DNA of 64,000 nucleotides from contig NC_089493.1 in the NCBI RefSeq assembly GCF_036850765.1, forward strand, positions 125,928,239 to 125,992,238, written 5' to 3'. The position numbers were made by a program, and so were the translations under genes. The notes beneath the pieces are model-generated. The model was not told the DNA's origin. It saw nothing but the letters and a program-made list of their open reading frames with translations, and did no database searches. Shown here piece by piece: positions 17,768 to 51,420 of the stretch (its first letter is position 1; each line of letters opens with the position of its first letter). The DNA is from Saccopteryx bilineata. Taxonomy: Eukaryota; Chordata; Mammalia; Chiroptera; Emballonuridae.

Positions 17768-20700
17768 CTATAAAATAAATAATTTAAAATGTAGATGTAA
17801 ATTTTCCAGAGAAATGTGATTCATTTCTTTCAGAATTAGTTGACTGGATCTTTAATTTGTAAGCAGCTTTCAGTTTCTAAGATGTTTTAATAAGATATGA
17901 TTGTACACACCAAGACATAACAATTGGGTAGAAAAATTTAACATACAAATGCATAACGAGTAAGCATTTTGTCTTATTTGCCCTGGACCTCCAGTACCTG
18001 CAGCCAGGCCAGAGACAAAGTAAATAATTATGTACTAGAATAGCGGAGAAGGGAAGGAGAGAGGGGGAAAAGAGAAAGAGAAAAGGAGAATGGGGAAAAC
18101 AGGAAAAGAAAGACACCCAGATTCCTCATAACATTTCTGTATCAGCAGCATGGGTACTAAAATGGGGGAAGTTAAGAGACAGAAGTCAATGAAAGGCTGT
18201 TCTCTAACTATTGTAATTTCTATGCTTCAACTAAAATTCAAAGTCCAGGCCCTGGCCAAGTAGCTAGTTGGTTACAGTATCATTCCGATACACCAAGGTT
18301 GCGAGTTAGATCCCTGCTCAGGGCACATACCTGTACAAGAATCAACCAATGAATGCATAAATAAGTGGAACAACAAATCAATGTTTTTCTCTCTTTCTTT
18401 GTCCTCCTTCCTATCTCTCTAAAATCAATTTTTTAAAAGTTCATTAAGAGACTATGTACTTAAAATCAGTCTGTTCAATTGTGTGTGTCAAAATGTGCAA
18501 TTTAAAGGAAATGACAAGGAGGGCAGGGAAGTGGTTGCTAGATAATCTGAAAGGTTAACTCTGAACACTGAAACTGGTAAATCTACAGAGAATGTTCTCC
18601 CTTCAAATGCCCTTTTTCCTAGTGTACTCCCTTACCCACACATCTCTCTGTGGTGGTGAAAGAGGACAGGGTTTCACCAGGCTAGTCCAGCTCTCAATCT
18701 CTAATGCTCTTCATTCCCTCTAACTTCAAACTTCTGAAAAGCTTTTTTTTATTTCACAAGTAGATCTTTCTGTTAGAAAAGAATTTACACTATGTTCATC
18801 CTGAATGAATCAATTGATTTTCAACTCTGTTTTGTGTAAGTCTGGGTAAGAGGGTAAGCTGTCCTGGGCCTGCTCACTTCCATGCAGATGCCCAATCAGG
18901 CTGACGAGCAAAAGGCCAGGACTCCAGGGCTCCATGCAGGTCCAGATACAAAATGCTAACCATGCCAAAAATTCCCTAATGACAACTAAGCCAGAGTGAT
19001 GACTTCAAATTTCAATTTGCTATTATGCATGGGCACATTTTCTAGAAACATTTTACATTGTGAAAAATGATTAGAACAACTGTCGTTTGCACTGAAATAA
19101 CAGAGTGTGAAGTGGAATGGTGGGAGCAGGCAAGGTGGTGACAGTCCCTGCTGTTCAACAAAATGCCACATAAAAATGTCAGGTCAGGTATTTTCAAGTT
19201 CAAATCCAGCCACTTGAGACAGAGTAGTAAAAGGATCAAGAAAACATCAAATTTAAAGCTTACCACTATAAAGGTGCACACTCGGTGAGACAGAGGTCAC
19301 AAATAACCTCAAAACCACACTCACTTGAAATCCAGTTATCTTCCAGATACTCTCATATTGCTTGCAAATAAAGAAATTAAGATAAAATACATAAAATTCT
19401 TTTAATCAAATTTTATCAAGTATCCACATCTGGATTAAAACAAATGGTGCAAGTGAGAGAAGGTCCTTGTCCTCAGAAAAGGACAACTCTGTCTAAAGAC
19501 AAACATGATAAGCCAAGCAAATAAAAGCATGACTGAAGAACAGCAGAAATAAGACAAAATGAGGTGGCCTGTGCCAGGACGGAGAATGTGAAACGTGAAA
19601 TGCTGTCTGCTGAGCTGGGAAAGCGTCTGAGCCCGGCCAGGCCAGGAGGAGGGAAGGCAGGAGTTACTGGGCTGTGCACCACGCGAAGTGTCCAGAGCAG
19701 AAAGAACACAGAAAAAAACCAAAAAAAACAAACAAACAAAAAAAAACTTGAATCAGCACAATAAATTTAAAAAGCCTTAAGGTTCTAAAGAGATGTGGTT
19801 AGTCCAAATTTCTAAAAACTCATATTCCTCTCCATCAGTGGAATGCGTATATAAGTCAGAGACTGCACTTCTGTTCCTTCACAGGTGGTAGGTACAGTAT
19901 ATGGTGTGGCCTTCAGTTTAGAATTTGATATATATGTAAATAAAGATGATCCTCCTTAATTCAGTTGTGATTTCTCTTTCCTGCTCCCTCCCTCCCATTT
20001 CTAAATAGCAACGGGACTGTGTGTACTGCTCAAGAAACAGCCTCCTAGAAAAAGTATTAAAGTTGTTAAGGAGATTCTCTGCTGTAGGCCGCCTTCCATT
20101 TAACTGACTAACAAAACACAAACACAGAGAAAAAAGCTGTCAGGTGTCCTGGAGAACTGAGAATGGTTACCCTGAGGAATGGAAAACCAACACACTCACT
20201 GAAGAAAGCAACAGCTGTGAGGTAATACTTAAAGGTCTACCTTGTGATGTGTAAAGACTTCACACAGACTTATGCTAAAAGATTTTAAAAGACAGACATA
20301 GGTATGGCTAAGTTTATGCAAAAAACATGGTAAGGGATAATTTTTTTAATAAATGTAGCTAACCAAACACAGAACAGTTTCCTCGTGAGACATAATAATT
20401 AAGAACACATACCCACTGCAGGACCCAGCGCCCACAGACTCACTGGGATGATGATGTGAGGATAAAAGGAGCCGGCATGTGTAAAGCACTTACATGTATG
20501 TCAGCGTCAGATACTCATCATGATCATTACTGGCAATGTTGTTGTAAGGCAGTGAGCTCCCCCCCCCCAAGACACATCCAACCAAATGCCAAATGATCCC
20601 ACAACACAGAGAATTCATAAACTGAATAGAATATGAGTAGAAACTAAATGGCCTTAACAGTTCTTTAAAGTCTGAGATTTTGGGATCCTTTAACACTCCT

Positions 20701-48725: not shown

Positions 48726-49502
48726 ACCTGTTCAGTGACTGAACAAACTAAAGTTAAATACTGACATTAAAAAATTCTTTCTAAGCATGACTACTTCAGT
48801 GAAAGGCGGCTAAAGAAGTGTCAAATATAGCAATATTACAAGTATTTTGCTTCATATTGTTTCTCAGGCAAGCTGGTGTTCATGAAGTCCGACAGAAACT
48901 CATACACAGAAAAACCTCGAACATATGAACTCACTGAAAAAGTTCTGCCCTTCAAAAAAAAAGAAAAAAAATCTTTAAGAGGATAGAAACCAAAATATAT
49001 GACAAATGACAGTCCCTTTAACATTTCTGATTTAAATTTTTAAAAAGTTTTTAATGTGTGCAGTTTGTTTTTGTAACAAATATTCAACTGAAAATTTGTC
49101 TGAAACTGAGTGTTTTATACTACAGAACAGAGTTGTACTTTTCCAGGAAATCTGTGGTAAATAAATTAGTAGAGGTAATGATAACACTGGGAACAATTTT
49201 TTTTTCATTTTCTGTTGTGTGAGGTTTTAGAACTGTTTCTATATATTTCTGCATCGCTGATTCCAAATCTGAAATCCATTTTTTGGTGCATGCTCTAGTT
49301 TTTATGCAAATTTAATTTCTTTTTGTTACAGTTAATGGCATGCATTGGTTTTTAAATTGGAGGGCAACGAATCTTGGATTGAACATAACCACAAGGCAAT
49401 TAATGTTTTACAAATATCACTTTTACATAATTGTAGTTGTTTTTAAATGCAAAAAATTATTATCTGATAAAACACCCTCTTATTTTGTTTTAAGATTGAA
49501 TC

Positions 49503-50093
49503 ATGGCTTCTTCAAGTAGGCGTAAATGTAAGAATAGTCCTGACATCTTCTGTTATATATGAGGCTGTTACACACTTCAACGTCAAAGGTGCAATATTTC
49601 ATCATTTGTGACATGTGCATATATTGCCTATTTTCAAGTTCCCCTTGGTGATCAAGACAAGAATTGGGCTCCTCATATTGTGTGTCATAATTGTGAGGAA
49701 ATGGTTCATGACTGGACAAAAGGAAAACACAAAGGAATGCCTTTTGGTATTCTCATGGTTTGGCGTGAACCTAAGGACCACAGCAGTGACTGTTATTTCT
49801 GTCTGATCCATACAAAGGGCACCAGCAAGAAAAAATGGAATATGATCGCATATCCTGATATTCCTTCAGCAATACAACCTATCCCACACTCTGAGACACT
49901 CCCGGTTCCCGTTATCAATGGTTTTATTTCTTCTAAGGATGAAGAAAGTGAACATGATGATCAAGTGTACTTGGATAAGATGCATGAGGAAATGATTGTA
50001 GAATCTGAAGGGTCTTCTTCTGATGCCAAGCAGTCATTAACCCCTCAGCAGTTTAGCCAACCCGAATTGAATGACTTAGTAAGAATGACATAA
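49503..50093 (+). pseudogene. Transposon protein remnant, N-terminal zinc-finger block
   Basis: From ATG 49503 the frame opens MASSSRRKCKNSPDIFCYI and then hits TGA at 49560-49562, exactly where the family has the second Cys of its CYIC finger. Past it the same frame runs to 50093 with paired cysteines (HIVCHNCEE, DCYFC) and PFGILMVWREP, YPDIPSAIQPIPHSETLPVP. I recognise these as hallmarks of a multi-copy family of uncharacterised proteins in arthropods, cnidarians and fish. An acidic, Ser-rich linker follows (SKDEESEHDD). The block ends at ELNDLVRMT with a frame change, where the family continues for a long stretch. Confidence 0.85.
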
Positions 50094-50820
50094 AAATTGT
50101 CCTCGACTTTCTGAAGTATGAGGAGCATAACTGGATCATTCGTGTGTATCTTAAAATGGTAAAGTTTCTGCTAGAACAACAGAGAGGTTTCATGAAGTAT
50201 CCTTGCTTTCTGTGTTTGTGGGACAGCCGGGCTTAGGAGAAATACTGGACACAGAAGGAATGGCTGAAACGTGAAGCTCTGGAAGTAGGGATGCAAAATA
50301 TTGTGAATGAACCTGTAGTTAATCCAGACAAGATCATTTCTCCCCCACTTCACATCAAACTTGGCTTAATGAAGCAGTTTGTTCAGGCTTTGAATAGAGA
50401 AAGTGAATGCTTTCAACATATTATTTCTGCTTTTCCTGCCTTGTCTTCCGAGAAGATAAAAGCAAGTGTATTCGATGGACCTCAAATTCAAACCCTTCTA
50501 CCTGACGAAGAATTTGCCAGGAAGATGAATAAGGAGGAGAAAGCAGCATGGCAGTCTTTCGTGGCAGTTACAAAGAACTTCTGTGGCAACAAACAAGCAG
50601 AAAACTATGAACTTCTGGTTCAGAGGATGCTGCTGGCTTTCTGCAACACTGGATGTAACATGAGCGTTAAGATTCACTTCCTGAACAGTCTCACCTTGAT
50701 AAGTTTCCTGAAAATCTTGGAGCTGTTAGTGTTGAGCAGACTACTGCTGGAGCATCAAACGAGATTGTCCTCAACAAGTACACAAACACAAGAGCTACAA
50801 ACGCAAATTTTTGCCTGAAT
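50094..50820 (+). pseudogene. Transposon protein remnant, C-terminal block (internal deletion)
   Basis: From about 50096 the frame reads KIVLDFLKYEEHNWIIRVYL, then YPCFLCLWDSRA. A TAG at 50234-50236 and KYWTQKEWLKREALEVGM follow, then PPLHIKLGLMKQFVQALNRE and on to CNMSVKIHFLNS. A +1 shift near 50690 moves HLDKFPENLGAVSVEQ into another frame, and the rest before the terminus is lost. Compared with remembered relatives, the whole middle of the protein is missing. The GDLK motif is VYLK here. The copy cannot be functional. Confidence 0.82.
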
Positions 50821-51420
50821 AGAATTTAAATAAGTTTTGCGCAAATTTTATGATTAAAGTGTTTTAATATGTTCTATTTCGAAATTGTAGACAAATTCTG
50901 ATGCAATCATAACTTTTAGTGTATTAGTATATTTACTGTGTTATATAAATTATTATATTTTCACAAAGATGATGCCCAAGAAGACATTCTACTTCATTAT
51001 GTTAAACTAAATGTTGAAAATTTTACAATAAGATGAAAACCTATAATCTTGAACTGCAAAAAAACTGTAGCTTACAGAGAAAAACTAATGTCAGATTTGA
51101 GATCAGCACACTTGAATTAGGTAAGAACAAGTGTTTTTGTGGATGCAACAAAAATTTTGTTCCCCAGTGTAACCCCCTAAAAGGGGTGCTTCATGGCTGC
51201 TTTGGGATGTAGTAAGCATACTGCATGGTTGTAAACCACAGCACACCTACGGCTGCCTTGAAGAGTGTGAGCTCAAACCATATAAACTCATTCTTTACAC
51301 AGTAAGCATTCCCAAGTATATAGTAAATTTTGGCCCCAATGGTTTTTCCTCTATTCTTTTATATCAAAAAAAAAATACAACTCTTAGAGTCAGATCTTTA
51401 TTTGATCGAATAATAAATAG

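Follow-up and report, generated by a model that had tools for sequence, protein, structure and literature searches.

The 64,000-nucleotide stretch of contig NC_089493.1 analyzed here (hereafter the window) contains, at positions 49185-51169, an element of 1,985 bases that is very probably a dead, internally deleted and non-autonomous copy of a cut-and-paste DNA transposon of the Chapaev3 group. Its 5' end reads CACTGGGAACAA and its 3' end TTGTTCCCCAGTG, and a TAA abuts both outer ends. These inverted termini, their coordinates and the flanking TAA had been given in a preliminary description made from the letters of the DNA, and are exact in the sequence. The same description spoke of imperfect inverted ends of about 120 bp, which is a fair account: there is a terminal inverted repeat of 12-13 bp at the extreme ends and, after a gap, a subterminal pair of 53 nt, 74% complementary according to the repeat search. 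Since 4 of 979 random 200-bp pairs taken from the window gave an equal or higher local-alignment score, the inverted repeat alone is only moderate evidence for the element. Its reality is settled by the copies found across the genome.

The genome searched was an assembly of 2.61 Gb in 256 contigs. When the window element was used as query, 41 matches were obtained at 40 places, its own included (best 40 of 3,620 candidates scored). The 39 other places showed 90-94% identity, most of them along the whole 1,985 bases, so that copies with the same ends, whose absence had been named beforehand as an argument against the transposon, do exist. The size of the family was estimated by counting 24-base patterns on both strands with up to two mismatches; the patterns were placed where variation is low, so the counts are approximate, and reversed-pattern controls gave 0 to 3 matches. 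The junction of a 325-bp internal deletion gave 1,053 matches (3 for its reversed control) and a piece of the region that it removes gave 1,448, whereas the corresponding numbers for a 76-bp deletion were 2,424 and 150. Each pair sums to about 2,500 copies. The Kimura two-parameter distance to the consensus of 29 complete deleted copies was on average 0.044 (0.032-0.060), or 0.033 without CpG sites, and that of the window copy was 0.037. The substitution rate of bats is near 2.4e-9 per site per year, which gives these copies an age of roughly 14-18 million years.

The target sites were analyzed in a top-scoring sample of 70 loci, made up of the window copy, 39 deleted copies and 30 loci from the protein search (best 65 of 8,943 candidates scored). 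Both end scores were at least 36 in 52 loci, which were taken as two-ended copies, and the other 18 were dropped for a lower score. The consensus at both ends of the family copies is CACTGGGGAACAA; the CAC...GTG ends are unchanged letter for letter in 34 of the 52 and mutated in the others. An exact 3-bp duplication was observed in 26 of the 52 (16 TAA, 10 TTA and no other triplet), in agreement with the TAA-type duplication of the preliminary description; flank matches of 4 bp and 5 bp were found in 2 and 0 copies, respectively. When the flanks were re-paired at random in 20,000 trials, exact 3-bp matches averaged 12.0 and reached a maximum of 23, as compared to the 26 observed. Deleted copies alone (14 out of 30) and the other copies (12 out of 22) were equalled in 14 and 8 of 20,000 trials, respectively. 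The left duplication is preceded by A in 23 of the 26 cases and the right one is followed by T in 22.

Among the 26 two-ended copies without an exact 3-bp duplication, T instead of the expected A directly precedes an intact CACTG in L015, L017, L019, L020, L024, L028, L034, L049, L050, L054 and L058. It also precedes the element in L014, L056 and L072, and among all 14 T-preceded copies 3 have a changed first base. The letters before the element are often ..AT or TTAT in these copies, which would fit a duplication that is occasionally 4 bp long or displaced by a single base.

Sites without the insertion were sought by comparing the joined flanks of 59 of the 70 loci (end scores of at least 29) with the window and the examined loci only. 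Spanning matches were obtained for five loci, of which L052 and L073 are clean and L070 is compatible, while L015 and L042 show too many gaps or too much divergence to be read. The flanks of L073 match two empty relatives that carry a single TTA, L074 (89.6%, 491 columns) and L068 (84.3%, 503 columns), and those of L052 match positions 18249-18403 of the window (77.6%, 156 columns), where the site is empty and TAA occurs once. The latter segment is an interspersed repeat. For the window copy's own flanks, no empty site was found among the window and the examined loci.

The best protein match to the window element is P0001 of the emballonurid bat Saccopteryx leptura, a gene model of 681 amino acids that comprises the transposase and about 117 further residues. 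This match suggests that the host is a bat, as had been supposed. In tblastn, residues 1-194, 303-504, 504-520 and 545-563 of P0001 align in this order, in three frames, within the window copy. The translated alignment therefore indicates that the coding blocks are pieces of one protein, as previously proposed. The proposal that this protein is the transposase of the element also holds. The copy has accumulated two in-frame stops, one of them at codon 20, the 325-bp deletion, a D324Y substitution, a frameshift that breaks the H(4)H motif, and the 76-bp deletion (Table 1). Judging from its translation, no functional transposase can come from this copy, and the spread of its class presumably depended on enzyme supplied by fuller copies.

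Of 11 other long copies that were aligned with the full-length copy L077 (2,407 bp), 7 lack the same 76 bp, and the window copy is devoid of both the 76 bp and the 325 bp. In each of 40 copies examined, one of which is the window copy, the 325-bp junction was recovered with no more than two mismatches over 24 bases; these copies had been chosen by similarity to the window copy. Such a nested pattern suggests that the full form gave rise to the 76-bp-deleted form and this, in turn, to the doubly deleted one. Among 65 places scored, one carries an uninterrupted transposase frame over residues 1-564. Five two-ended copies (L049, L052, L059, L060 and L067) are 2.65-2.92 kb long; in L049 and L052, the two that were aligned, inserted sequence accounts for the extra length (3' portion, 537 bp; 5' portion, 26 and 218 bp).

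Table 1. Features of the window copy, in positions of the window.
Feature	Position	Strand	Remarks
Left target-site duplication TAA	49182..49184	.	A at 49181 precedes; TWA duplications in 26/52 two-ended copies
5' terminal inverted repeat CACTGGGAACAA	49185..49196	+	Consensus of copies CACTGGGGAACAA; one G fewer in window copy
5' subterminal inverted-repeat arm	49256..49308	+	53 nt, 74% complementary to 51055-51107
Transposase N-terminal part, P0001 residues 1-194	49503..50083	+	tblastn with P0001, 88% identity; translation
TGA replacing codon 20 (Cys)	49560-49562	+	Translation
325-bp internal deletion junction	50083..50084	+	Residues 195-302 lost, including predicted catalytic D270
Transposase middle part, residues 303-504	50084..50689	+	C(2)C and LH motifs kept
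D324 to Tyr	50147-50149	+	Sequence, translation, tblastn with P0001
TAG stop in transposase middle part	50234-50236	+	Sequence, translation, tblastn with P0001
Transposase residues ~504-520, frame shifted	50689..50735	+	Ends at 76-bp deletion; residues ~521-544 gone
Transposase C-terminus ADYCW...FLPE and stop TAG	50736..50822	+	Alignment of long copies
3' subterminal inverted-repeat arm	51055..51107	-	Repeat search
3' terminal inverted repeat TTGTTCCCCAGTG	51157..51169	-	Sequence; consensus of copies
Right target-site duplication TAA	51170..51172	.	Next base C instead of usual T

The transposase contains, in P0001 numbering, the motifs C(2)C (C343/C346), LH (L391-H392) and H(4)H (H500/H505). 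Across 58 aligned proteins C343, C346, L391, H392 and H505 are invariant and H500 is conserved in at least 90%. D270, D324 and E519 are also invariant; in the predicted model they lie at the end of a strand, just after a strand and at the start of a helix, respectively, and correspond to the DDE residues of an RNase H-like fold, E519 being the presumed catalytic Glu. The predicted fold is closest to that of Transib/RAG1, with 10-14% sequence identity, and the model has the Transib/RAG1 catalytic-core fold. The alignment also shows conserved Cys and His residues in the N-terminal region. There, the Pfam model RAG1_imp_bd matched the N-terminal block of the window element with an E value of 0.05, below the cut-off; it was not found by Pfam in seven relatives, two of which match zf-AD weakly. 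No Pfam transposase model was matched at E values up to 0.5 in seven proteins, and Pfam did not make the assignment to another family that the preliminary description had named as evidence against itself. Two sequence searches against solved structures gave three weak mannosidase matches (E 0.23 and up) and none, respectively. Megablast against phage records gave no match, and a search for a virus-borne relative among viral contigs gave 14 pattern matches and no relative.

According to excerpts of the literature, Chapaev3 elements insert between A and T with a TWA duplication, for which empty sites provided confirmation, and carry CAC/GTG ends together with the C(2)C, LH and H(4)H motifs (PMC4079192); they are assigned to the Transib superfamily and given a RAG1-like Chapa zinc finger (PMC4411706). 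Because insertion as TWA in A-TWA-T, the CAC/GTG ends and the three motifs were all found in the present family, we filed it as Chapaev3 within CMC, and not as CACTA/EnSpm.

The origin of the family was examined in a tree of 53 of 131 listed proteins, 8 of them with organism names. A partial protein (409 amino acids) of the stick insect Bacillus rossius is the sister of P0001 (support 100/96), and both fall within a group of 22 sequences, one of which is labelled as a bacterial metagenome assembly and is probably stray animal DNA. The frog, lizard and snake proteins fall in other well-supported groups, the lizard joining Hydra. The identity of P0001 with the stick-insect protein is 73% over 410 columns; with the nearest other relative it is 77%. 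The position in the tree and the young age favor horizontal transfer, which probably brought the family into the bat lineage, as was suspected at the outset.

Several observations weigh against this interpretation of the element and of its arrival. An exact 3-bp duplication is missing in 26 of the 52 two-ended copies, 14 of which have T for the expected A, and only 34 of the 52 retain the exact CAC...GTG. No Pfam model attains its cut-off, and the placement in Chapaev3 was made by comparison with published descriptions. As for the transfer, no more than 73-77% of residues are common to the bat protein and its nearest relatives outside bats, as compared to 79-99% nucleotide identity in transfers described so far. 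Such a distance would suit an old, vertically inherited mammalian relic. We consider such a relic improbable, given that the copies are just 3-4% from their consensus and that the bat protein groups with the stick-insect protein, apart from those of frog, lizard and snake.

A second alternative is that the host has retained the family protein as a gene of its own, domesticated from the transposase, as the 681-residue model of P0001 may suggest. In the genome analyzed here, the copy with the highest similarity to P0001 (97.7%) is followed downstream by the non-transposon exons of that model (L048, G000:C4:45176595-45181289; L078; L081), and the exon downstream of it is identical to P0001 in 21 out of 21 residues. 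This would place the genome in Saccopteryx or near it (Emballonuridae). The downstream exons occur a second time (L079 and L080, G000:C4:45014710-45015807), in reverse orientation at a distance of about 160 kb, and the 1.5 kb upstream of them gave no transposase match. The ratio of nonsynonymous to synonymous substitution rates (dN/dS) was calculated for 30 copies; the reference was a codon consensus built from 28 of them, without the two best P0001 matches. These two gave 0.37 and 0.49, and the other 28 gave 0.45-1.38. The P0001-matching copy thus has nominally the lowest value of all, but it carries a TAG at codon 105 and is another locus than the dead copy of the window. Since no selected copy was clearly separated and the lowest-value copy contains a stop, domestication was not adopted, and we regard it as very improbable. 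A transposase capture at the P0001-matching locus, not intact in this genome, is possible. The fuller scenario, in which a RAG1-related transposon from an insect-like source reached about 2,500 copies, kept an open frame and was captured in Saccopteryx into a spliced host gene, is unlikely; if true, it would be a present-day mammalian replay of the domestication of RAG1.

The assignment to CACTA/EnSpm made in the preliminary description holds in the wide sense of CMC, the megafamily that includes both Chapaev3 and CACTA (PMC4079192, excerpt). The CACTG ends and the 3-bp duplication of the present family are also in keeping with a CACTA/EnSpm element in the strict sense. However, TAA and TTA account for all 26 exact duplications, set between A and T, which is the signature of Chapaev3 (PMC4079192, excerpt). 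In the seven proteins, moreover, Pfam matched no transposase model and hence no Transposase_21. CACTA/EnSpm elements have CACTR ends and a transposase of the Transposase_21 type, and membership in this group in the strict sense is highly improbable. A PIF/Harbinger element, a type with TWA duplications and a DDE_Tnp_4-type transposase, shares the 3-bp TWA but has practically no likelihood in view of the CAC/GTG ends, the C(2)C, LH and H(4)H motifs, the predicted fold nearest to Transib/RAG1 and the lack of Pfam matches to DDE_Tnp_4 in the seven proteins. The 5-bp target duplication of Transib/RAG1 proper was not seen (5 bp in 0 and 3 bp in 26 of the 52 two-ended copies).

For the Chapaev3 family, we propose the following mechanism. 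The full element of about 2.4 kb would encode a transposase of about 565 residues, with an N-terminal Cys/His region followed by a RAG1/Transib-like RNase H core containing D270, D324 and E519. This enzyme would bind the CACTGGGGAACAA ends and the subterminal repeats, excise the element and insert it into A-TWA-T, with duplication of the 3-bp TWA. Successive internal deletions, first of 76 bp and then of 325 bp, may have generated the 1.99-kb form, which would have been amplified in trans by the transposase of fuller copies and would have decayed afterwards. The family probably entered an ancestor of this emballonurid-like bat by horizontal transfer.

Among the papers listed in literature searches, no published report of this bat Chapaev3 family was found, judging by titles and abstract openings. 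To our knowledge, Chapaev3 in mammals has been known only from the tenrec. The existence of such an element in a mammal and the link between the protein family and its terminal repeats are not new: the preliminary description knew of no CMC family in mammals and took the protein for an orphan, but Conan (Chapaev3-1_ET) of the tenrec and the link to the ends had already been published (PMC4079192, excerpt). Horizontal transfers in bats are said to be predominantly in vesper bats (PMC13003292, excerpt). The bat family of about 2,500 copies would thus be a further mammalian invasion, outside the vesper bats, by a transposon with a predicted RAG1/Transib core fold, and its full, 76-bp-deleted and doubly deleted forms provide a datable and countable record of the spread and death of an element in a mammal that uses RAG1.

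With respect to Transib/RAG1, the bat family shows 10-14% sequence identity and duplicates a 3-bp TWA instead of 5 bp. Kenshin of the vesper bat Myotis davidii is similar in its bat host, CACTAG ends and horizontal transfer, but it is classed as piggyBac, a different superfamily, and its host belongs to the Vespertilionidae (PMC4298943, excerpt). Merrow and Garfield, Chapaev3 families from lampreys, fishes, insects and a bracovirus, have full copies of about 2.3-2.45 kb, a transposase of 556-562 residues, the TWA duplication and the C(2)C, LH and H(4)H motifs (PMC4079192, excerpt), and in all these respects resemble the bat family; their transposase is encoded by two exons (78 + 478 or 484 residues), whereas that of the bat family occupies a single frame over residues 1-564. 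Conan (Chapaev3-1_ET in Repbase), which has relatives in lizards, is likewise a Chapaev3 element with many copies in a mammal for which horizontal transfer has been proposed (PMC4079192, excerpt). Compared by description, it differs in its consensus length (1,865 bp), protein (461 residues), copy number (88) and host (tenrec) from the bat family, with about 2.4 kb, 565 residues and about 2,500 copies.
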